Source: Aphrocallistes beatrix (lineage: Eukaryota; Porifera; Hexactinellida; Sceptrulophora; Aphrocallistidae). From it: a stretch of DNA of 64,000 nt. Position numbers and translations under genes: made by a program. How positions within the stretch are numbered: the first letter of the stretch is position 1; every line of letters begins with the position of its first letter. Below, one piece after another: positions 1,391 to 61,097 of this stretch. The stretch lies in contig OY725494.1 of assembly GCA_963281255.1 (NCBI GenBank), positions 1,687,934-1,751,933 on the forward strand, given 5' to 3'. Below the pieces are notes generated by a model, which saw only the letters and a list, made by a program, of their open reading frames with translations, did no database searches and was not told the origin of the DNA.

Positions 1391-1506
1391 TCAAGTCAAT
1401 AGGAGTAACTTTATGATTCAGTTAAATTATCTTTGTTTTCGAAGCCTTCGTTAATGCAAAAATCATGCACCCCTTGAGGTTGTCTTTCTACTGTACCCCA
1501 CGGCGT

Positions 1507-1820
1507 TATCATAGCAGCGGATTCAGCAGCGGATTCGCATGTCAGACAAAACCGTTTATAAATCAAAAAATATGAGAGATATCAAGAAACTAATTATACC
1601 AACGTGTAGGGGAGGATTTGGGAGATTCATATATCATGCTCAAAAAATCAAAATATTATATGGTGACCATGGATGGGTACATTTTGTCACAGATAACAGT
1701 TAATAACTTGAAAAATATCCATCTAAAATTATTTTCTTTAAATACAGTTAATATCTACCCTTGGGAGACTCTATGTTTAAAATTTCAGATAAAAATATGC
1801 ACTTTTGAGAAAATAACAAA
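1507..1820 (+). repeat. left long inverted repeat of a composite element
   Basis: About 310 bp that is repeated in inverted orientation at 8425-8717 with over 90 percent identity by eye. Shared landmarks are GCATGTCAGACAAAACCG, a long A-rich stretch and GTGACCATGGATGGGTAC. This copy carries a 12-bp internal duplication (AGCAGCGGATTC twice). The repeats face each other outer end to outer end, as terminal inverted repeats would, with the transposase/OTU gene between them. No target-site duplication could be made out. Confidence 0.7.
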
Positions 1821-2043
1821 TGTCCAACTTTTCACTACTTTTACATAGAAAATAGGACAAAATAGTACACTGTGTATATGACTAGTATCATACTTTGTAC
1901 TGTACGTATTAGGCACACATCATAATGCAAAAATAAAGTTCAATCTAATATAAATGATTGAACACATATTTGTCCATAATGGGGTAATGAATGGCTACGC
2001 CATAAGTATTCGATTCTTTTAACACCTCGCTCTATCAAATATA

Positions 2044-2227
2044 CAGTCAGGGTCGCTTATTATGAGCCCGCTCAATATGAACATTAGTTTATTATGAACT
2101 AACCTCCTGGTCTCAATTTCACATTTTAGATAGGATTTGATTGAACCAAGTTCGCTTAATATGAAGTATCTCTATTATGAACAGATTATTTGGTCCCCTG
2201 GTGGTTCACAATAAGCGACCCTGCCTG
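2044..2227. mobile_element. Tc1/Tigger-type MITE, TA target
   Basis: Starts CAGTCAGGGTCGCTTATTAT and ends with AATAAGCGACCCTGCCTG, between TA dinucleotides. The same family occurs at 44007-45261. Non-coding. Confidence 0.85.
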
Positions 2228-2229
2228 TA

Positions 2230-2650
2230 GTTGAACCTGTCGTAGCGGCCCCCTCTATATAACGGTCACTTGGACATAGCGTCCACCTAAGAACAGTCTC
2301 GATGTCTTATTATATTGAACCGTGTATAACGAACACCTGCTCAACGCGACCACCATTTTTCGGTACCTTGTGGACACAAAAACTAACAACCGGCCACTTC
2401 ATGTTTAGAATTATGTTTACTACAATCCTTATTCCGAACGATGATCTAGTTTCTACGTAGTTTCAGTAATACTATTAGCAATAACGCACATCAGTATACA
2501 CGTCTGTGTAGATTGTTCTGTATCGCATCGTTGCATCACAAGCCTGTATATTCTGGTCAACTGGCCCCTGCCTGTCTATGACGACCACATGTATATACAT
2601 ATATTGTTTTAACCCATCTCTTGGGTGGACATTATAGGTATGTTTGATTG
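2230..2650. mobile_element. Tigger-type MITE, degenerate
   Basis: Begins GTTGAACCTG and ends with a CTTGGGTGGACATTATAG segment, sharing motifs (ATAACGGTCAC, GCTCAACGCG) with the copy at 38812. It abuts the preceding MITE at a shared TA. Confidence 0.6.
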
Positions 2651-2763
2651 TATACCATTTCATGTCATTACTGTTGTAGTTCTAGCAAATCAAATTTAAT
2701 GTCGTTGTTTCAAGCACTTTTCTGATAATTGTACTTTCCTAAGTTGTACTAGTATATACTATA

Positions 2764-2977
2764 CAGGCTTTCATTCAGGCGTACTGGGGGCGCGTATTTG
2801 AGCCCATGGATCATAGTTAGGCGTATTATTTTTTGGGGCTAGGCGCGCGGCATACGCCTACTTGGGCGCGTGGCATAAAACATATATAAAAATGCTGTAT
2901 AAAAATGAGTCTAGGCGCGTGGAAAAATGGTGACGTCCATTTAGGCATATGACTTTGGAAAGCTGGATGAAACCCTG
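2764..2977. mobile_element. hAT-type MITE (CAGGCTTTCAT family, copy 1)
   Basis: 214 bp bounded by CAGGCTTTCATTCAG and CTGGATGAAACCCTG, with an exact 8-bp duplication ATACTATA (2756-2763 and 2978-2985). The interior is rich in GGCGCG motifs and is nearly identical to 9246-9453. Confidence 0.92.
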
Positions 2978-4159
2978 ATACTATAGCAATAGGGTTGGTG
3001 GACCTAGGCCAGCCATACCCGCCCTACCATTTATTATGAGCTTCCGACGACTGTACAACTGAACTGTTTTTATTTATAATAAACTGCTTGATCTCTACAA
3101 GTTGAGAAATGAAAAAACTACCAAGGCTAAATTGTCATTCTTGGAGTTTAACACGCTTTTTGGCTATTTTGGGGTTCGATTACTAACTTTGGCCCATTGG
3201 GCTTCTACAGTCTAACAAAATACGAACACGCGTGGCTAATAATCATCGCTAAAATCAGGAAACAGGAATCAATTCATAAGTCCTTCCCATTAGTCGTCTA
3301 ACTTCGAAATATTCATCAGCATTTGTATTATCCCTGGAGCTACACTACTGCTATATAGCGATAAGATGAAGAATATAAAGTATTGAGGGTAATTAATTTG
3401 TTAAGTGAATTATAATTTCAATAATAGTCAATGCATATTTAAGTAATACGTATAAATATTTAAGCTTGTTTTTAAGAATTCCATAGGTAATGGGCTTTTT
3501 TCAAATGACTAGTCTTGACTCTTGGATCTTTTTAAGCGATGAGTATATTATAGGAGTCGAGTAATCATAATTCAAGCAGGAAGTGCATAGTAATGAGTCA
3601 TCCTTTTGAGTCACTCACCGCCCTTTGTTCTTGCATACTTTGAGATTAAATAAATGCAACTATGGAATCTACCACCCTTCTGTTTAGAAATGAACACTAT
3701 TCATTGCGCAAAATATTTTTTAACAAATTTTTGAAATATTATATACCCGGGACTCCAATAATCTGATCTCAAAAATGTCAAGTTCGAAAATAACTTTTTT
3801 CTCCTGATTAAATATATTTTTATCTTCCTATGGTCTGTTATTAATTCAAAATACTAAATAAGGATAATTTCTTTTAGTTTATAGACGGGAAATCATCAAT
3901 AAGAACAACAATTTTTAAAGTATGATCATAGAATGTACATAGCATTCGAATTGTTTTTCTTTTGATTTTTCTCTTTTTTCTAAATACACAAACATTAATG
4001 ATCCACCCAGCAAATATATTCAGAAATACAGGCAATTGGATTGCAAAATAATTAAAATAATCCTTAGAATTTTCAAGTAAAACGCAATGTCGGATGTTAG
4101 ATACACTTGTGTAAGTATAATACTTCAGCAAAATTTTCATATTTTCGGATTCCCTAATT

Positions 4160-4224
4160 ACGGTTTCAATCAACCTAATGGAGCGGAGTGAACGACGGGG
4201 CTCCATTAGGTTGATTGAAACCGT
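4160..4224. repeat. perfect 24-bp hairpin
   Basis: Arms 4160-4183 and 4201-4224 are perfectly complementary (ACGGTTTCAATCAACC and onward) around a 17-base spacer. It lies just beyond the 3' end of the transposase/OTU gene and could be part of that transposon's structure or a 3' end signal. Confidence 0.8.
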
Positions 4225-4364
4225 GAGCAATTGTGCTTGTATTGGGTAAAAAAGAAAAGAAAAATACCCATCTAGGAATATCTCATCTTATGTAGGGTGC
4301 CTTTTTTGGAGACAGCTGGTAGTAGAGTGAGATATACTATCCCTCCCAATATCTAAGTGCTAGG

Positions 4365-7300
4365 CTAGATATTCGAAAGAGAGATATCTGGTTTTGGCTG
4401 AAGTGATAATATAGGTTCATAGTGGCAACCCAAATTTCGAATATATATTCCATGAGAAGTTGGCTCCTGCAAAAACCTATCTAAATTATATCCTTTACCC
4501 GAAAACTCAACCCATCGTGTCCCCTCCTGCCCCAAAAATACCCAAATATCAGTCTCTAATGATAAGGCCGTATCAAATATCTCCAGATCCGTCGCCCAAG
4601 TACCAGCTTTATTCATTCCAGTCTTGTTGACCCAATCTTGAATATTTCGATAATTCCCTTGTTGATACAAACACTTGGAACTTACAAATTTACTACAATC
4701 TACCTTTAATACAGTTAGCATTTTATCTACGATTAATGCTCTAAGCTGTTTATGATAACATTTACTACCAGTGATTATAAATGACAAGGTTGAAAAATAA
4801 CAATTACCGTCAGCATTAATATGTTCCACTACATTTGGAAAATAATTTCTTAGATTTTCCTCTCTAATAGAAGGGTCAAACGAATATTTAACAGAAGAAT
4901 AAAATGGAATATTATTATTTTTACACGTAGCTATTTGCCAGGCTAAATCTGGAGGAGGAAATCCAGGTAAATCATAGTGCACTACATCCATTTCTACCAA
5001 CTCGCTATCAGTGATTATATTAGATTGAGCTAACCTTATAATTTTAGGTGTAGATTCTTCTCTTAAGTCAGATAATCTCTTCCGTTTTTTTACTATATAA
5101 TATGGGTCTCTTTTTAGATGGCATAGTGATAGGTTTGTCGCTACATTTAGCATCTGCAACAATTTTCTTACATAAAGAGCTAACTTTATCATTTGGCTGT
5201 AAATATCCACAATGTTTTTTAGATTTTCTAGACCATTCTTCATTACAATGCTCTTCTGAAGATTTTCTGGGTCGCTTATGCTGAGTGAACACCTTTCTGG
5301 CTCTTGGGTGAAAAGCAAAACTAAATGCCGATAACCTAGTCGTTATATTCGGGTATAATGTTTTTATAAAGTCTCCTGGTCTTATATTAGTCTTTGAATT
5401 GAAAATATATAATTTGATGATTCGCATCCAATTCTCAATCAGTGCGTTACTATAATGGGTACATGATTCACCAACCTTTGCACCGTGTGGTCCCAAAATT
5501 ATTCCACTCCACAATGGTAATAAAGGCATGTCATATGAAAGTAAATATTCAATCACTTTTGGATTATAATTTGGATTTAATTTAATATTTGAATCAACCC
5601 CACCAACTATTTCATTACATTTTTCGAGAATTTTTGCAAAATGTCTCCCAAATGGAGACTTTTCCCGATACGTTCTATTCTCATCATTTTCAAACGGGTT
5701 GTACTCACTATCATCCTCCACTATTATATCCTCGATTGTGTAACTGTCGTTAGAAATATGTGATTCTAAATTCAAAATATTATCTGTTACATTGTCGTCC
5801 AAATTTCCACTCAAAAACACTACACATAATGATCGGAAAACATTATTTATCTTATTTATATCAGTACAGCTTACAATATATCCAACCGAGAATAGCAATA
5901 GTTTCCTCACATTCTTATTTAACTTGAACTTTTTGTTAACGTGGTAACCTATGCCATTTATTAAATGTGCTGAACATAAATGTATAATTATATTATAATT
6001 TATAAATTCTCCTTCTGGATCGAACTCTATTATAGTCCAACATTTATTTAAGTATGTTTCTAGATCACATTTGAGGTATGCGTTACAAACGCTATGAATA
6101 AGAGCCCAACTATAGTCGATTTCAATTTGACCAATGTTAAGTTCACTGCCTACAATCTTTTTGGCTTCAAGTGCCCATTTATGCAAAAAATACGTTATTT
6201 CTGCACTACTGTGAGCAGAACTAATCATTTCTGCAATAGGAACAGGACTACGTAGTAGAATAATCTGGATTACCAACGGTCAATGCATAATAAAAACCCT
6301 TTTTCTGAGAAGAGTCTATTTTACGTTTAATAGATCCAGTAGCATCCAAATGAACAATGACTCTTTTATTTTTAAAAAATTTTAGAATTTTAATTTGATT
6401 TTCACTATATAAATGAACAATAAAGGGATTGTAGGATAAAGATTGTATATATCCATTAATATGTTTATCAAGTATAGTATTAGAATAGTGTTCCTGTAAT
6501 TTAATTAATTCTATCCAATTATCATTAGAGAACCTATTTAAACATGCTAAATCAAACTTAACCTTACGTAAAAAACACCATTACTTTTTATTTTATTGAA
6601 GTTGCCAAAATCCAGAGCATTATTCGTACTCGTTGGAGACGAAAATTGTTCATAAAAAATTTTGCTCACTGGTTGATCAGAGAGCTCTTTGGCCACTTCT
6701 ATTCAATTTGTATTAGACAAATGCCTAGCATGAACAGTTTTACCATCATCATGCTCAGGAGATAATGTGCCACTAACTGTACAATTAACTACTATATCAT
6801 CTACTGTAACAGTAAATGGATTGTTTCTAACTAAAAAAGAAAATTCAAAACAATTATTAAATTTACATGCTGCTTTTGCCTTGAAAAAACAACAATTACG
6901 TTTTCTACTATTCGTTTTGTTTACTTTTTTATATTTAAAACATAAAACACATTGATACTTATTTTCGATTTTAGAATTAAATAAATTTGTCCAATCTTTA
7001 GAGAAAATAATATTATCACCTTTTAAACTGGTCATTTGGCCCCATTCACTCTTACTAAGATTAAATGTAATTTCCTCATTACAAACAGTTGGATCGATTA
7101 TTACTTCATTAATAATTAAGCTACCTTCATCTATTAACAACGGATCTGTGTTATCAACATCATATAATTCCTTAGTCTCTGTAGAAACTACCGTGTCCCT
7201 CTTATTCTGTAGATTTAGAATTTTTTCACGAAAAATATCATAAAAATCACATATACTACAATCAGAATTTTCACGAAGATTTTCTAAATACGAAAGAAAC

Positions 7301-8061
7301 ATATCAAGTTGCTTAGTTTTTAACATTAGGTAAGATTTACCAAACAAATTATTTATAAAACGACAGTTAATATTTTCAGCGATCAACCATGCTTGTACGA
7401 ATTCAAATTGATCTAACATATAAGTCACAAACCTTTGACACGCCTCATTTAGCTTTTCGTTAACTAAAAGGAAACCTCCTTCAACTAGGGGACATTCTAA
7501 ACCAAATAATTTTAATGATTCCAACCAGATTGCACTATCGCAATTGTTACCGTGCCAGAAAAAACCTTCGGGCTCATCTGAGTCGGGTGGAGAAATTGAC
7601 GTGTGATACTTAGAAATTAGTTCACCACTCTCACAACCTGATGCCCAGATACTAACTAGTATATCATCGAAAAGTACACGTTCTAAATTTCCTAAACTAA
7701 GATGTTCTAAACTAATACTACTACCTAACTCTACAAGATCTAAATCACTGGCTAATTCTACACTATCTCTAACATGGCCTATCGCCCTATCAAAAGAATT
7801 ACTTAACTCACTCAATCCGGACATCATTTTTTCACTCAGTATCTCCTGAATATTTCCACTATTATGTCTCCATCTGGCGTTAAGAAAAGATCGCTTATTA
7901 TCTCGATTAACCCCGAAAATAATGGATGCTAATTTTCCCCACATCGAATCGGCTTTGCTCCTGTTTGACTTTTGTAGGACACATTTCAGGGTTAGAAAAT
8001 CGTCAAACCCAAGGGACAATCGGGCCTCTAGGAATTTGTCGTCGCTAAAATTTACAGGCAT
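4365..8061 (-). pseudogene. DDE transposase with C-terminal OTU cysteine protease, Mutator-like
   Basis: One decayed gene read right to left. The start is ATG 8061, just after a 64-nt intron (donor AAG/GTAAGT at 8127, acceptor TTTATAG at 8064). The N-terminal about 450 codons (to 6703) end in a Cys-rich block (CVLCFKYKK). After frame breaks near 6700, 6570 and 6270 comes the RNase H-like DDE core: VHLDATGS (first Asp, near 6340), EIDYSWALIH (second Asp, near 6115), CSAHLINGIG, and SNALIENWMRIIK (Glu, near 5430). A single frame slip in a 7-A run (5085-5091) then leads into an OTU domain with catalytic DGNCYFS (Asp170, Cys173 of that frame) and a terminal HYEP (His299). Mobile elements carrying OTU or Ulp1 proteases are known mainly among Mutator-like elements; exact family assignment is uncertain. 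Confidence 0.75.
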
Positions 8062-8424
8062 ACCTATAAAGAACAATTGTTTATAGCTTGAGAATAACAT
8101 TAGAAAATATGAAGTTTAATAACTTACCTTATCCAAGATCGACAGTGATAGATAGAAAATGAATTTAATGAAAGAAGTAGAGAATGAAAGTAGAATGATT
8201 GGAAGAGATGAAAATATAAATGCTGAAATAATGTAAGATAGTCGAAATGACAATCAAGATGAAATCTAGCATTATATACAAGCAAATAGGATCTGCCTAT
8301 GGCTATGATTACTTCTAGGAAGAAGCCATTGCGATGTAACATGTATTTATTTTAGTATACTAGCTGAATTGGGATGCTTAATTAACAGTATTCAAAACAA
8401 TACCACATATTTAAAAACACTCAA

Positions 8425-8717
8425 CATTCTCAAAAGTGCATATTTTTATCTGTAATTTTAAACATAGAGTCAACCCAAGGGTAGACATTAACTGTATTTA
8501 AAGAAAATAATTTTAGAGTTATTAACTGTTATCTGTGACATGGACAAAATGTACCCATCCATGGTCACCATATAATATTTTGATTTTTTGAGCATGATAT
8601 ATGAATCTCCAAACCATCCCCTACACGTTGGTATAATTAGTTTCTTGATATCTCTCATATTTTTTGATTTATAAACGGTTTTGTCTGACATGCGAATCCG
8701 CTGCTAAGATAACGCTC
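8425..8717 (-). repeat. right long inverted repeat of a composite element
   Basis: Inverted partner of 1507-1820. An open reading of about 67 codons (8691-8488, minus) containing IIPTCRGWFGDSYIMLKKSK crosses it and is partly kept in the other copy, so this arm may descend from coding sequence. I do not recognise the product. Confidence 0.65.
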
Positions 8718-8840
8718 GTCTGTAACCCATGTGTCAGCTGTAAACCACTTAGAGGGTTCCTTCCTCATGATCCAATCCCAAAGATATACTGGCGACGGTA
8801 TTGAAAGAGAATATTCAGCAAGTTTATCAAAGATTCGATA

Positions 8841-10359
8841 TGAAGGCCATGCCAAAAGTTTCAGGATTCACACCTTTATAATAAACCAATCATATCAAGT
8901 TTTATAACTTATAGTATTGATAGGAATATAATATTGACTGTCAAATTTCAATCGAATCCCACCGCTCAAAAATCTTTTACAGACTCTTTCAATACCTACA
9001 TTTCGTACTTTATTAATTTCTTTGATGGAACTAACACGAGAACATTTCAGAACTATGATTTATTATGATTTTAAAGATGGTTTAAGTCAACAAAACTGCT
9101 TTGAAAGTCTGACAATATGTTTTGGAGATCAAGCACCTTCTAGAACAACTGTATATGACTGGTATGGAAACTTCAAACGTGGTAGGCCTTCACTATAAGA
9201 TGACCCTAGGAGTGGGAGTCCATCAACGGCGACCTGTCCTGAAAACAGGCTTTCATCCAGGCGTACTGGGGGCGCGTATTTGAGCCCATGGATCATAGTT
9301 AGGCGTATTATTTTTTGGGGCTAGGCGCGCGGCATACGCCTACTTGGGCGGCATAAAACATATATAAAAATGCTGTATAAAAATGAGTCTAGGCGCGTGG
9401 AAAAATGGTGACGTCCATTTAGGCGTATGACTGGAAAGCTGGATGAAACCCTGCCTGAAAATTTTGATAAAGTACGGGAGATGGTCGAAGAAAATCCAAG
9501 GATCACAATCGAGGACATTGAGGGGTAAGTAGGGATCGGATCGGCAGCGTACAATCGATCATTCACGATTATTTGGGTCTAAGAAAAGTAGATGCCCGAT
9601 GGATCCCCCATTTTCTGACCGATTTCCAAAAAAATACTTGAGTGGATTGGTGTAAGGTTATGCTGCGAAAATTCAGCCATAGTGCTTCTAAACGTATTTG
9701 GAATATCGTTACTGGTAATGAAACCTGGATATATCACTATGATCCAGAATCTAAAGGACAATCAATGGTATGGTGTGCGCAAGATCAACCGCCTCCCACT
9801 GAAATTAGGCGGGCCACAAGTGCGGGGAAGAAAATCATTGCGGCTTTTTTCACTAAAGGTGGTATTTAAAGACAGTGCCACTTGAAGATCATAAAACAGT
9901 CAATGCACAATGGTATTATGAGTTTGCATCCCTGAAGTTCTCCTAGCTCGGTGTGAACGACGACCAAAGGGCGGAACTCGAGGATTACTGTGGCACCACG
10001 ATAATGCACCAGCTCACCATTCGAACTTTAGATTTTTTAGAGTCAGAAGGGATTCCCATACTTCCACATCCGCCATATTCTCCTGATTTGGCCCCTTATG
10101 ACTTCTTTTCGTTCCCTAAAGTCAAAGGTATACTCAAAGGAAGACATTTTTCAAGCAATGATGATGTCATAAATGCTTATTTTGAGGCGGTCTCGACCAT
10201 CGACAAGGATAAGTAGGGGGAGGTATTCAAAAAATGGTTTGAAAGGATGCAAAAGTGCATATATTGTAATGGAATATACTTTTAAAAATTATAAAAACAT
10301 AGATCAAAGTGTAGTGTTATTATTCTGCTTGAATTCGGAAACTTTTAGCATGGCCCTTG
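8841..10359 (+). mobile_element. mariner element, full length but dead
   Basis: Inverted ends TGAAGGCCATGCCAAAAG and its counterpart CTTTTAGCATGGCCCTTG lie between TA dinucleotides (8839-8840 and 10360-10361). Without the inserted MITE and its duplication it is about 1.3 kb, the normal mariner size. The transposase runs from ATG 9025 to about 10260 with several stops. Readable motifs are a helix-turn-helix region (TTVYDWYGNFKRG), TGNETWIYHYDPESKGQS (first Asp replaced by Asn), HHDNAPAH (second Asp) and YSPDLAPYDFF (third Asp), i.e. the D,D34D pattern of mariner. It is interrupted at 9246-9453 by a hAT MITE. Confidence 0.93.
9246..9453. mobile_element. hAT-type MITE (CAGGCTTTCAT family, copy 2)
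   Basis: Second copy of the 2764-2977 element, inserted in the mariner transposase. Exact 8-bp duplication CCTGAAAA at 9238-9245 and 9454-9461. Nearly identical to copy 1, so both moved fairly recently. Confidence 0.95.
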
Positions 10360-18994: not shown

Positions 18995-20249
18995 CTGTAT
19001 TTCTCACTCGATTATCCGAGATAGTCAATCAATTATCCGAGATGGTCAATCAATTATCCGAGATAGTCAATCAATTATCCGAGATGGTCAATCAATTATC
19101 CGAGATAGTCAATCAATTATCCGAGATGGCCAATCAATTATCCGAGATAGTCAATCAATTATCCGAGATAGTCAATTGATTATCCGATAAAATTTGATCC
19201 AGTTAATTTAGTGTAGATTTTATTTTTCACAATTATATGTATTCAGATAAATATTTTAACAATGATTTATTTAAGAAGAATGGGGTTAAATAATCGAGTT
19301 TGATAGCTCTGGCTGGTTATTAAATCAAATTTAGAGGTCTTCGAGCCTAATGGCTTTGGGAGCAGTTATCGTTAGGACATGAAAAAACGAATTGAGGGTG
19401 GAGGTGGCAGTAATTCGACTGAGTGCACTAGGAGCCAGTTGCAAAAGAAATTGTCTTCTTGCTGTAGCAAGTGATTGACCATGGTTTGGAATAATTGGTC
19501 CATGTATACTGATAGCACGCTTCAAATATGCTGAGACTATTAAACGAAAATTCGATCGGATTAAGTTCACAGCTGTAAGGTGGTAAACGGATCAATTCAA
19601 AGTTTTCCGGTATGTTTTCGGCTAACCTCGCTTCAATACCTCGATGACAGGGTGCATTGTCGAATATCAAGTAGAATTTATTTACTCCTTCAATTGGATT
19701 AACCGCTTGACCGAACTCTAAGTGAAATAATTCATTGATAAATTGGTCAAAATTCTCCTGCTTCGCTCCTCCAGTTATCATCATTTTATGGATTAGTCCA
19801 GCATTAGGGCTAATAGCACATAGCATGGTAATATGCGGAGTTCTTTGATTTCATCACTGATTGCTTTACCTCCTCGTCTGACAGGAGTAGATTCAGAAAT
19901 ATTTAATGTGTTACTTGCCATATGAAATTAAGTTAACAACGATTTGATTCCAAAATAATTCTCCATTTCGCATTTTATATTTAATCAATTATGTAAATAC
20001 ATACAATACCCTTTCATTGTGTGCAGAATCAGGTGAACTGATTGGTACATAAATATTCGGATAATTGATTGACTATCTCGGATAATTGATTGGCCATCTC
20101 GGATAATTGATTGACTATCTCGGATAATTGATTGGCCATCTAGGATAATTGATTGGCAATCTCGGATAATTGATTGACTATCCCGGATAATTGATTGGCT
20201 ATCTCGGATAATTGATTGACTATCTCGGATAATCGAGTGAGAAATACAG
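18995..20249 (-). mobile_element. Tc1/mariner-like element with tandem-repeat inverted ends
   Basis: Ends CTGTATTTCTCACTCGATTA on both sides in inverted orientation. Each arm (18995-19185 and 20055-20249) continues as eight or nine tandem 21-bp units (ATCAATTATCCGAGATAGTCA). Between them is a minus-strand transposase. Unoccupied copies of the target (near 34625 and 62290) define the insertion. A TA is kept next to one end but the exact duplication is slightly blurred. Confidence 0.88.
19331..19921 (-). pseudogene. Tc1/mariner-superfamily DDE transposase, shortened
   Basis: ATG at 19921 opens MASNTLNISESTPVRRGGKA, which after a frame change passes straight into the catalytic domain: AISPNAGLIHKMMITGG, YLIFDNAPCHRGIEA (second Asp), RLPPYSCELNPIE (Glu), then after one frameshift near 19530 a C-terminal tail ending LEDL. 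The helix-turn-helix region and the first catalytic Asp are largely missing, so this is a deletion derivative, not an active gene. Confidence 0.8.
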
Positions 20250-39835: not shown

Positions 39836-39919
39836 TATATTACTTATATAATTATCACCAAATATTTCGGAAATTGCTTGCGTACGATATTTTTCTTAAA
39901 TTGATGGCTGAATAATGCT

Positions 39920-41330
39920 TCTCAGTTTCGTTTCATCAAGTCAAGCAGAGGAGGCAACAAACTCGAAGAGAACGATTTCTTTATGATAAACATAAAGTGC
40001 TAGGAGAAGTTACTTATTGGCAATGCGAGAGAAGAAATGATTGCAAAGCGAGACTACATACACAAGGGACGCAAGTAATAAAGCGCATCAATGATCATCT
40101 TCACGGGCCTGATATGCAAAAGGTTTCCTGTTTGGAAACTAAAGCAGGGATCAAAAGAAAAGCTACACAAACTCAAGACAGTACACATCATATCATTGGC
40201 GAAGGCTTGATAAATATTACTGAAGGTACTGCTGTCAAGCTACCCAAAATAAATAGCTTAAAGAGGACAATTCAATGCGAAAGAACGAAAGCGAATACAG
40301 TTCCGGTACAGCCTGTAAGTTTATTAGAACTTGATATTCCACTAGATTATCAGATAACAGCCAAAAATGAATCATTCCTTCTATACGATTCTGGTCCAGA
40401 AGAAAGGAGAATTCTAATTTTTTGAACACGAAGAAACGCAGAAATGCTGGAGCTAGCTCAGATTTGGTTAGCGGATGGTACTTTTAAAACTGCACCAATG
40501 CTATTTGAGCAAGTATATTGTCTTCATGCATTGAGAGGGGGACCCCTACCATTAGAAGATGGACATCTTTTACCTAGCTTCTTCGTACTTTTACCTAATA
40601 AGTCTCAGCCTACTTACACGAGAATGTGGCAAGCAATCAAACAACTCTGTCCACATGCTCACCCTACACATCTGTTAATTGACTTCGAAAAGGCAGTTGC
40701 AAATGCATTTTCAAATTTCTGGCCGCATACTCATATAAAAGGATGTTTCTTTCATTTGACACAGAACATATTCCGCAAAAATCAAGCGGAAGGTCTACAA
40801 AACGAATATCAGCAAAACGAGAGCTTCGCGATACAAATTAAACTATTACCCGCCCTAGCTTTTGCACCACCTTGCGATATCCTAAATCTCTTCGCTGGAG
40901 TAGTCCAGGATCTACCTCTGCCAATGGCTGAGGGTTTAGTTATCTATTTCGAGCGTACCTACGTTGGGCGTATTCTACCTGGTGGCACATTGCAACAACC
41001 ACTATTTCCTGTTGAAATGTGGAATAGTCATTTCGAGGTACTGACTGGATACCCAAGAACGACAAATTCAATCGAGGCCTGGCATCGTTCGTTTAACGCC
41101 ACCGTTGGTTGTTGTCATCCAACTATTTGGAAATTTATTCAGGCCTTAAAGTTGGAACAAGGGATAGTTGAATTTAAACAAGTAAATTTCAAGCAGGAGA
41201 AAAACCAACAAAACGGAGAAATCGCCAATAAGAAGAATCAATTCGAAATTTGGTCAGGGACTATTTCAATCGTCCACCCATGGATTTCTTGCGTGGTATA
41301 GCATCATATTGGATTGGATTTAGATTAGTA
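39920..41330 (+). pseudogene. MULE transposase with FLYWCH zinc finger
   Basis: N-terminal FLYWCH-type finger: FRFIKSSRGGNKL, then after a frameshift near 39985 YWQCERRNDCKARLHTQG and a His-rich NDHLHGPD. The catalytic domain follows: RILIF, an in-frame TGA (40423-40425) where family members have Gly, then RNAEMLELAQIWLADGTFKT (first Asp), THLLIDFEKAVANAF (second Asp), GCFFHLTQNIFRK (C/H block) and TTNSIEAWHRSFN (Glu). The body from 40444 to 41200 is open. The C-terminal FLRGIASYWIGF block near 41283 lies in another frame. With one stop and about two frameshifts it is a young corpse. Relative at 48880-49610. Confidence 0.88.
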
Positions 41331-41460: not shown

Positions 41461-42828
41461 CAGTGTGTTCGGAAATTATTGAGACTTTTTCGAATTGCCT
41501 TCAATTAGCAATATATTCCTAGTACAAGCACATATTATATAACCATCAGTGTTATTGAATAGCTAGACTTGGCTAGACTAGATAATTCATCACAGATTTA
41601 AGATATCCACTATCAAAAAAAAATTTCATTGACAAAACAAACAAAATCTTCTATTTTTTTTAACAAATATTTACTACCCGATTTTCATTTTCAATTTGAA
41701 TTATTCGGTACTGCATCGATGTTTTCTACACAACAACAACGCAGAAATCAAATAGAGACCTTGTATAACGCTGGAATTACCAGAGGAATGGAAATCTCTA
41801 GGCGGACGAACATTCCCAAGCCGACTGTTTTTCGTGTCTTATCCCTTATCAGAGAGAAAAAAACCCTCCAGCATAAGAAAGGAGCTGGACGCCCAACTAA
41901 AATCCAGGAAAATGACAAAAAAAGATTGCCTCCATTCTAAATTGCAATTCGAGGACTTCATTACGTTCCATTCTACCAAAGTTAGGAGTGAATGTATCCA
42001 TCAGCACCCTCCATGCCCAGGTAATGAGGCAGAACTTCCTGAACACACGTGCTGTCCGAGTCCCAGCTCTCACTGACCTCCATGTCTCCAAAAGAATCGC
42101 ATGGTGTAAGGAAATGAAAGGCTTTGACTGGAGCAAAACATTCTTTACTGACGAGTGCTCAGTTTGGCTTGATTCCGGAAGGATTAATGTGTGGACGAAG
42201 AATGGGCAGCCAATTATTCTGCCGACTTTCAAACATCCTTCTAAAGTTCATCTTTAGGGTGGGATTTCGCTTATGGGGACTACACATCCTAAAATTTTTA
42301 CCGAAAACTTTAATCAAGCTGTGTACATTTCCACTTTTAGCGAGTGTCTTATTGAGGAGGCTAAAGGGAAATACGGAGAAAGTTGGGTTTTACAGGAAGA
42401 CAACAGTCCTGTACACACTGGCAAGGCAACCAAGGGGTGGAAAGCAGAGTTTGTCCCCCTTCGAATCGATTGGTCACCAAATAGTCCAGACCTTGTCCCA
42501 ATCGAAAATATTTGGGCGGTTTTGAAGAGAAGGCTACTTGTACGACATCCTAAAACCATAGACCAACTAAAAGAGTCTATACGGGAGATTTGGGAGTCCT
42601 TTGATCCAGAATTTCTCCGGCCTTTTTGCAGTTCAATGCCAAAAAGAATTCAGCTTTGTTTGAAAAATAAGGGAAAAAAGATTAATTATTAAAGTTGTCA
42701 GGATTCAATTTTGAATTTCGTTTAAGGACATGTATATTAACTTAATTTAAGCGTAGCTAAGAGCCATACTTCACCAATGAATAGTTTAAGATAATTATAT
42801 TTAGTCTCAATAATTTCCGAACACACTG
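41461..42828 (+). mobile_element. Tc1-like element, complete ends
   Basis: Inverted ends CAGTGTGTTCGGAAATTATT and AATAATTTCCGAACACACTG between TA dinucleotides (41459-41460 and 42829-42830). 1368 bp, inserted in the MULE after its transposase gene. It encodes the transposase at 41719-42692. Confidence 0.95.
41719..42692 (+). pseudogene. Tc1-like transposase, one frameshift and one stop
   Basis: DDE transposase that cuts and pastes its element. ATG 41719 opens MFSTQQQRRNQIETLYNAG with a helix-turn-helix (ISRRTNIPKPTVFRVLSLI) and a GAGRPTK linker. One base is lost or gained in a 7-A run (41917-41923). The downstream frame carries TFFTDECSVWLDSG (first Asp), an in-frame TAG at about 42255 where Trp is expected (HL-stop-GGISL), QEDNSPVHTGKA (second Asp) and SPDLVPIENIWAVLKRR (Glu), and ends GKKINY. 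All catalytic residues are kept, so this was active recently. Length about 325 codons, normal for the family. Confidence 0.92.
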
Positions 42829-54059: not shown

Positions 54060-54460
54060 CATACCTATAACTTTATTTGACTATGCCAGGTCGTTATTTT
54101 AATACTGAATTCGTACTCAGCACTAAATTTCCAGCAATTTGGTATATATATTGACCATTATTTTGAAAAATTTTTGGTTGCCTTTTCCTAGCAACGGTCA
54201 GGAATGTTAAAAAATTCCTGGCCGTTGCTAGGTACGGTTAAACAAAAATGTTTCCAAATATGGCCAATATATATATCAAATTGCTGGAAATCTAGTGCTG
54301 AGCATGAATTCAGCATTAAAAAGATGATCTAGCACTGTTAAAAGAAGTTATAGCTGTGGGACATTTCGCATTTAAAATGTGTCGTTTTTAGAGCGACACC
54401 AGGTGATACAAGTGGCTCAAAGTGGCGAAATATTTGGGCTGGAGTTATAAAAATCGGGAT
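54060..54460. repeat. repeat R5, copy 2
   Basis: Reverse-complement match of 51640-52050, ending AGTTATAAAAATCGGGATTA directly against the P-like gene fragment. Confidence 0.85.
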
Positions 54461-54477
54461 TATTCCTTAAGATAGCT

Positions 54478-55840
54478 CCAAAATTAACTTCCAAAGCTTG
54501 TTGGCCATCAAAGTTGGAACGTCAAAACGTAAGCTTGGCTCTTAAAGTTTTTCATGAAACGACAGCTGCAGGGCTATTAAATTACTCCAATGAGCGTAAC
54601 CTTACTCACCAGACAGTCGAATTCCTAAATTTGATAAATAAAGTTTGGAATATTTTCAATGTCAATTGGGTTGGGAAAAATATTCGATTTAATAACCAAG
54701 ATATGGCTCCACTGGTTTTAGATTATGACAGAATAACCTTTTTGGAAAACATTGTATACTGGTTAGATTGTTGGAGGCAAATACCTGTTTCGAGAGGGAA
54801 ACTGACACCACAAACCTTTACTAGTTTTAGGCATACCTGTATTGCTCTCCCCATTTTACTTCTGAGACTAACCAAAGAATGTGGTTTTGAATATTTATTA
54901 ACATCCAGAATTTAAAATGACTCTTTGGAACACCACTTTGGCCTCTATCGGCAAATGTCTGGTTCACATTACCACATATCTTTTTGTCAAATTCTAGAAA
55001 GTGAACGTCGGCTTCAGTTATCAAATATTCTCAAGTTTTTTTCCATCAAACAACAATCCCCAACGATAGATAAACCCTTATCTCTTAAAGAATACTTAAA
55101 AGGGTTCATATGGGATAGTAGTGAAGAAGAAGAAAAACATGCTCATTTTGATTTTGAATACTATCTAAATGAAATTAAGGGAATCCCAAATTGTGTTTTT
55201 AATAGTTCACAGATAGACTGTCTAAATTATGTCGCAGGGTATGCCATATTTTCTTACCTAAAACAATCAAGAGAATGTCTAGACTGTAAAAAGTTTTTAA
55301 CAAATGATATTCAGGTATACAATGACACAGGTTTTTCATTGATTGACATGCTAGATAGAGGTTCACTTAATTATCCATCCGAAATTGTCTATCAATAGCA
55401 TTATGTATGAATTATTTCTCAAAATTAAAAGTCACCCAGGGTTAAGTAAAAGTTTCTTTGAAGGGTCTTGCCGTCGAAAATTGGTTCATTTAACAATTTT
55501 AGTAATCGAAAAGAAGCACAGTGAAGTTTGGAGAGATTGGTGTACCTGTGCCGTTCCAAAATGGGAAATTCTTAAGAAACTGTGTAACACTGTAGCTAAT
55601 TGCATATTATCAAAAGCGGTTAAAAACTATAATGCCATGGTAGTAGGTCGTGATAATTCTAAGTTACAAAAGTCAGTAATAATACTTAATATCCTTCTAT
55701 TCCTTAGATCCGTTACACAGAATACGATACAAGAAAATCACAGTCACCTTTGTAACCATCCTTATGAAACTACATCGTTAAACAGTCAACAATATACATA
55801 CTACTCACCGATACAAATTCTGATACAGTCATCTATATGA
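54478..55840 (+). pseudogene. P-like transposase, C-terminal half
   Basis: Reads KLTSKACWPSKLERQNVSLA (start of the region after the second catalytic Asp), AAGLLNYSNERNLTHQTVEF and FNVNWVGKNIRF (GTP-binding-like insertion), FRHTCIALPILLLRL, then LLTSR, an in-frame TAA (54913-54915) and DSLEHHFGLYRQMSGSHYH, the signature late in P element and THAP9-type transposases. A Cys pair (ECLDCKKF) follows. A frameshift near 55390 leads to a last block (GLSKSFFEGSCRRKLVHLTI) to 55840. It lacks the THAP domain and RNase H core, the part that survives in the separate relic at 36.1-37.2 kb. The element's right end is at 56160-56223. Confidence 0.82.
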
Positions 55841-59506: not shown

Positions 59507-60235
59507 ATGTTAGCTCTCAACTGTTTCTATACATATAAGGATGCGCCACGCAGCAAAGGGGCAATGGGGAGGCGGGATGGACCAACAAGGAAGTATCCGG
59601 GAAGCCAATTCCCTAAGAAGGGTCGGTGCTTTATTTGCGACTCGGACAGGCACTTTATGGCCCAATACCCGGGACGGCACTGTGCGAAATGTGGCGAAAA
59701 AGGACACGAGGTCCGCTATTTCCCACATAGACGAAGTCGAAGAGGGGTATTTCAGGCCACGATGCAGCATAGTGTTGTACATGAGAAGGCGGTTGTGGTA
59801 CCAGTTGAATGGAACGGCAAACCCATCAGTGTAATGATGGACACGGGGGCGGATCCTTCGTTGGTGGACAGAGGCACCGTACAAAAGATGAATATCCCTT
59901 ACAGCACAAAGTACAGTCAAGTGTATGGGCTAGGGCGGACAGCGCTTGTGGTCTGTGGTACGGCCTGCGTGGCGATAGATGTGGGGGATGGTCGACCACT
60001 AGAACACGAAATCGAAGTACTCGATACTAACAATAGGGTGGTTCTATTGGGGCGAAGGTTCCTCGCGCGCTTCAAGAATACTACTTTCGATTGGGAAAAC
60101 ATGAGAGTTAGGCTAGGTGGTTTTTGGAAAACCTCTTTAGCTGCGGCACGCGGGGATATGCGGCGACTAGAGCAGAAATTATGCAGACTGAGATGGGAAA
60201 GGAGGGAGATAGCTTGGAGGCCAGGTTCGATATAA
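59507..60235 (+). pseudogene. Ty3/Gypsy retrotransposon, Gag end and protease
   Basis: Readable protein with one good zinc knuckle (CAKCGEKGHEVRYF, last Cys replaced by Tyr) after a degenerate one (CFICDSDRHFMAQYP), then an aspartic protease with the active site MMDTGADPSLVD and an LLGRRFL flap-side block. The gene begins in mid-Gag, so the 5' part and LTR are missing. The DNA is far more G+C-rich than its surroundings. A frame change separates it from the reverse transcriptase. Confidence 0.88.
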
Positions 60236-60275
60236 ACCCAAACTATCACCGCGAGAAGAGACAGCCATACGCAAG

Positions 60276-60895
60276 GTGCTGTCGAGATGGAAAGACGTTT
60301 TCGCGGAGAACCCGAAGAGCCCGCGCGAAATTGGAACCGCGGAACACGTTATCACTCTTCTGGATGAGCGGCCGATCAGAAGCCGGCCGTTGCGTGTTTA
60401 TCCGGAAATTGAGGCGGAGGTATCCAAGCAGATAGATGAAATGCTCGAGAATGGGATCATACGTCCCTCTTCTTCCTCTTGGGCGAGTCGAGTGATCTTA
60501 GTGAAGAAAAAGGACGGGACCCATCGATTTGCCGTAGATTACCGGGATCTCAACGATGTGACGAAGCGAGATGCCTATCCGATGCCTGATCCCCGAGATG
60601 TTTTCGATCGTATGGGAGGGGCAACTGTATTCTCTACACTGGATGGGGCATCTGCATACTGGAGCGTGCCTGTGAAGGAAAAGCATGGGGAGTTCACTGC
60701 GTTTGTTTCAACGCGCGGCCAGTTTGAATTCAACCGCATGCCTTTTGGATTGTCAAACTCACAGGCTACCTATCAGCGAGCGGTAGACCAGGCTCTACGA
60801 GGGTGTCCGAATGTACAGGCATTTGTTGATGACACATGTGTCCACTCGCCCAGTTTCGATACGCACCTGGAGCATTTGGATGAGGCTCAGTTGGC
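60276..60895 (+). pseudogene. Ty3/Gypsy reverse transcriptase, 3' truncated
   Basis: Opens WKDVFAENPKSPREIGTAEH and continues with the RT motifs: NGIIRPSSSSWASRVILVKK, HRFAVDYRDLNDVT, FSTLDGASAYWSVPV, FEFNRMPFGLSNSQATYQRA and AFVDDTCVHS (catalytic Asp pair). The fingers and palm are complete and open. It ends at DTHLEHLDE near 60893, before the thumb, RNase H and integrase. No LTR was seen on either side. Confidence 0.92.
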
Positions 60896-61097
60896 TATTC
60901 TAAAAATTGAGGATGAAGAATGTGAAGATTGGACTTTTGAGTGTACTGATTGCTGTATTGACGGACAAGATATGCTACGTTGTATTTTAATGACTTCAAG
61001 TAACTGTTTACTCAACAACAAGGCCAAGAATATTACTTCTACCACCTCTAGTCCCAAAGATACTCAAAGCAAGATACTTAAACTTACCTCTAATTAA
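60896..61097 (+). other. open reading fused in frame after the Gypsy break
   Basis: The RT frame runs on for 66 codons of unrelated, A+T-richer sequence (QLAILKIEDEECEDWTFECT, DCCIDGQDMLRC, then Ser/Thr/Lys-rich) to a TAA at 61097. It is not a Gypsy domain. It may be a piece of another gene or element; not identified. Confidence 0.35.

Follow-up and report, generated by a model that had tools for sequence, protein, structure and literature searches.

An OTU domain fused to the transposase of a probable Mutator-like DNA transposon family in the glass sponge Aphrocallistes beatrix

Why should the transposase of an animal DNA transposon carry a domain of the deubiquitinase type? The question is raised by a 64,000-nucleotide stretch of the genome of the glass sponge Aphrocallistes beatrix (GenBank assembly GCA_963281255.1, contig OY725494.1, positions 1,687,934 to 1,751,933, forward strand), hereafter the window, in which an element at 1500-8719 encloses a minus-strand gene with the Asp, Asp, Glu (DDE) motifs of a transposase and an Ovarian Tumour (OTU) domain. 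The window is part of an assembly of 100.5 Mb in 28 contigs; copies elsewhere are named by contig (C1, C6 and so on) or by locus number, and all genome-wide counts of matches to the repeat, the transposase core, the OTU part and Pfam models are lower bounds among the matches listed. A first-pass annotation had described inverted repeats of about 0.3 kb facing each other across such a gene, and this was borne out, with ends a few bases wider than the 1507..8717 given there. On the sequence evidence, the element is probably a dead copy of a DDE transposon family resembling Mutator-like elements (MULEs), which would use its OTU domain in cis as a putative deubiquitinase.

The boundaries were taken from the repeat ends, since most of 30 such ends compared have a common outer end like ACGAGCGTTATC. 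Most of 1503-1811 is matched to 8427-8715 by inverted arms of 97, 71, 54, 44, 34 and 22 nt that are 91-99% complementary. Chance repeats were rejected because the left repeat recurs, with at least 41 genome matches listed, the window's own two arms included. The 9-mers that flank the element, read by hand at a damaged left end, agree at eight of nine positions and represent a probable 9-bp target duplication, and perfect 9-bp duplications were found in three of the six repeat pairs examined (C6 at 2.90 Mb, C1 at 2.58 Mb and C2 at 6.05 Mb).

The search for less decayed copies, which the first-pass annotation had proposed, led to a copy on C6 with the same ends, in which transposase and OTU are read in a single frame of 1239 aa that begins with ATG and meets no stop before its end. 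Blocks of more than 500 bp in the window copy match the copies on C6 and C1 at 95-99% identity, and the coding part of the window copy is 98% identical to that of C6. Comparison with C6 also clarified the slip in a run of seven A on which the join of the two domains had been said to rest: the frame-changing indel is real and lies near 5091, but it is not the sole damage, as there are four disabling changes. Two more frame-changing indels lie near 6575 and 6254, and one stop interrupts the frame; from these lesions the window copy is judged to be dead. A further deletion of 30 nt leaves the frame unchanged. Elsewhere, stop-to-stop frames holding both domains were observed at 1102 aa (L039, L041, L042), 1272 aa (L049, L050), 1037 and 1044 aa (L056, L057) and 1041 aa (L059, L060), where the loci of the longest frames contain those frames only in part. 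The transposase-OTU fusion is real, because besides the one C6 frame there are fused frames in subfamilies that are 32-59% identical. The family has one gene, whose open frame measures about 1040-1270 aa between stops in several subfamilies; a weakly conserved linker joins its DDE-like core to a C-terminal OTU that keeps the catalytic triad. The data are consistent with a single gain of the OTU that preceded the divergence of the sampled subfamilies.

The residues expected of both activities have been kept. In the alignment of copies, the DDE-like D, D and E and a CxxH motif are invariant in eight of eight rows. The earlier statement that the OTU keeps Asp, Cys and His, which we take to be its catalytic residues, was confirmed for the window copy, and none of the three varies among the 12 aligned rows (ten of the family including the window, the Ginger1-like L063, and L064). 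Against the OTU model PF02338 the window copy falls just under the curated cut-off (E = 1.4e-4, 22.8 bits against 23.3), which five of six other copies scanned exceed. Searched against the PDB, a profile of these 12 rows retrieves OTUD1 (E = 5e-9), OTUD3, OTUD5 and OTU domains of viruses. Moreover, Cys, Cys, Cys and His near the N-terminus are common to the seven rows that cover the region and, as judged by eye, may bind zinc.

The family is large. At least 108 matches to the core were listed genome-wide, the window included, and they merge into 85 loci, at 71 of which the same strand has an OTU match a short way downstream; the OTU part has at least 151 matches, 150 of them tabulated. Copies of the repeats without the gene, named in the first-pass annotation as a finding that would speak against it, do exist: a short pair on C16 holds no gene pieces, and the copies on C12 and C20 hold pieces only. 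Deletion copies are ordinary among transposons, and these are of that kind. The outer flanks of one short copy, L021/L028 (C16:2035027-2036504), are almost the same sequence in opposite orientations, as though the copy sat inside a foldback repeat.

Selection on the two domains was compared by a Nei-Gojobori count over 13 pairs, six of them near-identical, which say little, and seven between subfamilies. In the latter, synonymous change was high or at saturation, while the proportion of changed nonsynonymous sites was 0.18-0.46 for the OTU, 0.22-0.41 for the core and 0.36-0.56 for the linker. The OTU is thus constrained about as strictly as the core. Among the near-identical pairs, L056/L057 had a ratio of nonsynonymous to synonymous change (dN/dS) of 0.09 in the OTU, from 6 synonymous and 2 other changes, and of 0.22 in the core. 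The loci L059 and L060, which lie on different contigs, have zero differences at the compared coding sites, and L039, L041 and L042 have at most a few coding differences. These are signs of recent movement, and some subfamilies may recently have been active.

The OTU of the family can be compared with others in the same genome. At L063 (C10:455300-460400) an rve integrase piece is followed 1.9 kb on, on the same strand, by an OTU frame, the domain order published for Ginger1 in the description PMC2836005, and the locus is therefore regarded as Ginger1-like. Its OTU aligns with eight family OTUs over 139-205 residues at 56-82 bits, usually including 40-50 residues before the Asp-Cys motif. L084 and L085, which by eye are taken for host genes (OTUD5 and A20-like types), score no higher than 35.4 bits with rows of the family. 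L084 aligns with two other repeat-type OTUs at 43 bits; the OTU of L090 reaches 45 bits. The OTU of the family is related to that of the Ginger1-like element. In a tree of 16 OTU rows (20 loci tried; L049, L064, L084 and L085 missed by the extraction motif; L090 on a very long branch) the family OTUs form one side of a branch with support 89/100, apart from the Ginger1-like ones. The pattern would fit a transposon OTU module shared between elements but is no proof of a transfer, the host side of the comparison being L084 and L085, whereas the OTUD1 and OTUD3 types are closest by profile. An OTU standing alone as a host gene had also been named as evidence against the element. At 66 of 137 merged OTU loci no listed core match lies nearby; of two inspected, L063 and L064, the first is Ginger1-like. 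The two OTU genes that look like host genes, L084 and L085, are only distantly similar. Some core-less OTU loci look like remnants of this family, having a listed inverted-repeat match no more than 5 kb away (C3:3874873, C17:1673194). The genome as a whole bears an unusual OTU load, with at least 149 matches to the OTU model, 41 of which have a listed core match at most 4.5 kb away; many of the remainder sit in repeated frames of 220-244 aa, and at L090 (C2:4502300-4503200) the match lies in an open frame of 1970 aa, perhaps a Helentron.

In the mechanism that we favour, the N-terminal Cys/His region would bind the inverted ends and the DDE core would cut and paste the element with 9-bp staggered cuts. 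The transposase-borne OTU would remove ubiquitin in cis, either from the transposase itself or from repair or chromatin proteins at the site, by which the transposase could escape degradation or repair could favour the element. Instead, the OTU might serve as a protease that processes the fusion itself, releasing transposase and accessory pieces as from a polyprotein, as its C-terminal position behind a linker less conserved than its neighbours would allow; yet no conserved cleavage-like motif is apparent by eye in the linker of the aligned copies, and known OTU enzymes target ubiquitin or ubiquitin-like proteins rather than their own linkers, which makes this very unlikely. We also give very little credence to the OTU as a passenger, a captured gene fragment with no role in transposition. 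Transposons do capture pieces of genes, and a listed OTU is missing at 14 of the 85 core loci, but the domain stands in one frame with the transposase, its triad is invariant in all 12 rows, and a Ginger1-like element in this genome bears an OTU too; that the OTU is kept between subfamilies about as strictly as the core speaks against a passenger.

Several observations weigh against the reading of a MULE-like family with a working OTU. No Pfam transposase match was obtained in any of the 12 cores at E ≤ 10. The MULE model PF10551 has no match in the cores, and none of its 150 listed places in the genome lies within 3 kb of the 108 listed cores. A profile of the core (14 of 17 family loci passed the extraction motif; L036, L040 and L045 did not) gave a probability of 0.2% with the Phantom MULEs of this genome (nine loci, one giving no frame and one only 26 aa) and 0.6% with a P-element-like control, both values being meaningless with such shallow profiles. 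A listed OTU is absent at the 14 core loci mentioned above, and one locus, L036, has none by tblastn in the 1.5 kb downstream, so that copies without an OTU can occur, at any rate among those that may be dead. Whether transposase and OTU always share a frame had been a question of the first-pass annotation; they do so in several subfamilies but are separate in some copies, for example L055 and L058, by either decay or splicing. Two of the six repeat pairs, both decayed, have no target duplication. For L049/L050 dN/dS is 0.5-1, and changes are few in the near-identical pairs. AlphaFold, run on the window OTU as a single sequence, returned a pLDDT of 33 and no usable structure, and the OTU tree is without host OTUs and the L049 subfamily.

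The kind of transposase was approached from several other sides. Neither the core nor the whole protein has a credible transposase match in Pfam, PDB, NCBIfam or PHROGs, and the core profile is not significant against two DDE_3 pieces and an rve piece (again with shallow profiles). Pattern matches numbered 76 among viral contigs and 45 among bacterial and archaeal genomes, none of them a relative by tblastn. Ginger1 was rejected, as none of the 12 cores has a match to the Gypsy-like integrase (rve), of which L063 has one. Helitrons and Helentrons are not known to have terminal inverted repeats (TIRs) or target duplications, and were rejected since both are present here and no Rep or helicase match was found in six copies scanned; a retroelement was likewise rejected as the identity of the element. 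Of the 149 OTU-model matches, 3 lie within 5 kb of a listed MULE-model place.

The traits that recall MULEs are the TIRs of about 0.3 kb, the target duplication of about 9 bp and the order D..D..CxxH..E in eight of eight rows, an order which we take to be that of MULEs and which is common to other superfamilies too. Membership is suggested by the ends, the duplications and the motif order, with the sequence model PF10551 not matched. We give an even chance to true membership in the Mutator superfamily, with a place within or close to the published group MuDR-6_HM, which would be compatible with the OTU acting in cis. For that group, one of one-ORF cnidarian MULEs, the survey PMC6446971 lists an OTU domain, and rows of its tables give MULE target duplications of 8-11 bp; in contrast, the group is listed there without TIRs (the two being compared by description only), and the Pfam MULE model and the local Phantom profile gave no match here. 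Alternatively, and we put this forward tentatively as the less likely course, the transposase may found or belong to a DDE superfamily outside the searched libraries, and the OTU with the 40-50 residues upstream (WQ..C motif) may be a transposon-specific module passed between unrelated transposons, namely this family and Ginger1-like elements. If true, ubiquitin removal would be a common tool of animal DNA transposons.

The features of the window copy are collected in Table 1. The 5′ leader may contain an intron, as GT and AG-like ends can be picked out in it by eye. The window copy is without about 430 bp at 4136 that the C6 and C1 copies both have. The 214-bp repeat inserted in the element has CAGG..CCTG ends and resembles a miniature inverted-repeat element of hAT type; a second copy, 96% identical, lies at 9246-9453, among the remains of a mariner.

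Table 1. Features of the element and its flanks in the window.
Feature	Positions	Strand	Remark
Left target-site duplication CTGTACCCC	1491..1499	.	8/9 identical to 8720-8728
Terminal inverted repeat, gene's 3′ side	1500..1811	+	outer end with one base missing against the common end
3′ region without recognised gene	1812..4364	.	mostly common to C6 and C1 copies
214-bp short repeat inserted in element, ATACTATA flanking both sides	2764..2977	.	missing here in C6 and C1 copies
Hairpin 3′ of gene, 25-nt perfect arms, 15-nt loop	4160..4224	.	within block common to C6 copy
Transposase-OTU gene	4365..8061	-	broken: one stop and three frame-changing indels
Linker end and OTU domain	4365..5087	-	Asp 4809-4811, Cys 4800-4802, His 4422-4424
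Transposase core	5068..6279	-	second Asp 6115-6117, CSAH 5965-5976, Glu 5434-5436
Frame piece with first catalytic-type Asp	6248..6580	-	Asp 6344-6346
N-terminal part of gene	6703..8061	-	Cys, Cys, Cys, His common to seven rows
5′ leader of gene	8062..8426	-
Terminal inverted repeat, gene's 5′ side	8427..8719	-
Right target-site duplication CTGTAACCC	8720..8728	.	pairs with 1491-1499

Other mobile elements share the window. The mariner-type remains (8938-10216, plus strand) include a Mos1-type helix-turn-helix (PF17906), with later frames that are mariner-like by eye and have no Pfam match. At 39916-41301 (plus) a FLYWCH zinc finger (PF04500) precedes a MULE transposase domain (PF10551), a pairing from which we take the element to be a Phantom-type MULE; its core has at least 138 genome matches, the window included. 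DDE_3 (Tc1-like) transposase pieces lie at 19428-19850 (minus) and 42258-42692 (plus), and Gypsy-like pieces with aspartyl protease and reverse transcriptase at 59507-61097 (plus). Frames at 54451-55840 (plus) are of P-element/THAP9 type by eye, with one weak PF21788 match (E = 0.003, under the cut-off) and two frames without a match. In the genome the collagen model has 128 matches, with clusters at C19:369356-401260, C8:134953-156500 and C16:3724260-3727429, which is indirect support for an animal; the same model also matches in three bacterial controls. The wnt, Chitin_bind_4 and fungal Zn_clus models gave no genome match and were silent in the controls too, so that these blanks show little. 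Loss of the Wnt pathway had, according to the account in PMC10280926, been reported only in myxozoans before the glass sponge described there.

The locus bears on why several kinds of DNA transposon carry domains of the deubiquitinase type, and one genome here shows OTUs beside two unrelated transposases. In this family, which has intact fusions and signs of recent movement, one active-site change could disable the OTU and leave the transposase untouched. The first-pass annotation had called a deubiquitinase-like protease on an animal DNA transposon unusual; that it is new in itself is not supported, as OTU domains on animal DNA transposons are in print for Ginger1 (PMC2836005), Helentrons (PMC6431247, PMC9741609) and one MULE group (PMC6446971). 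Among these, MuDR-6_HM resembles the present family as an animal DNA transposon group with one ORF and a listed OTU domain (PMC6446971), and differs in the TIRs and the Pfam MULE match as noted above. Ginger1 likewise has a C-terminal OTU on an animal DNA transposase, with TIRs described as 44-270 bp, but its integrase is of Gypsy type, whereas the present core has no rve match (PMC2836005). Helentrons and Helitrons with OTU or VTD domains are also mobile elements with a deubiquitinase-type domain; their described protein is a rolling-circle RepHel, whereas here no such domain was matched and TIRs are present (PMC6431247, PMC9741609). OTUD1, OTUD3 and OTUD5, the best solved OTU domains for the family profile, have the same Asp-Cys motif but are cellular enzymes, and their best stretches span about 40-110 of 214 positions. 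In PMC6875170 the abbreviation OTU stands for operational taxonomic unit. In the literature searched we found no transposon with both long inverted ends and 9-bp duplications whose OTU is fused to a core outside the searched families. The OTU-bearing transposon as a kind is thus already known; what this sponge adds is such a combination in several subfamilies, in a genome that also has an OTU-bearing element of Ginger1-like type.

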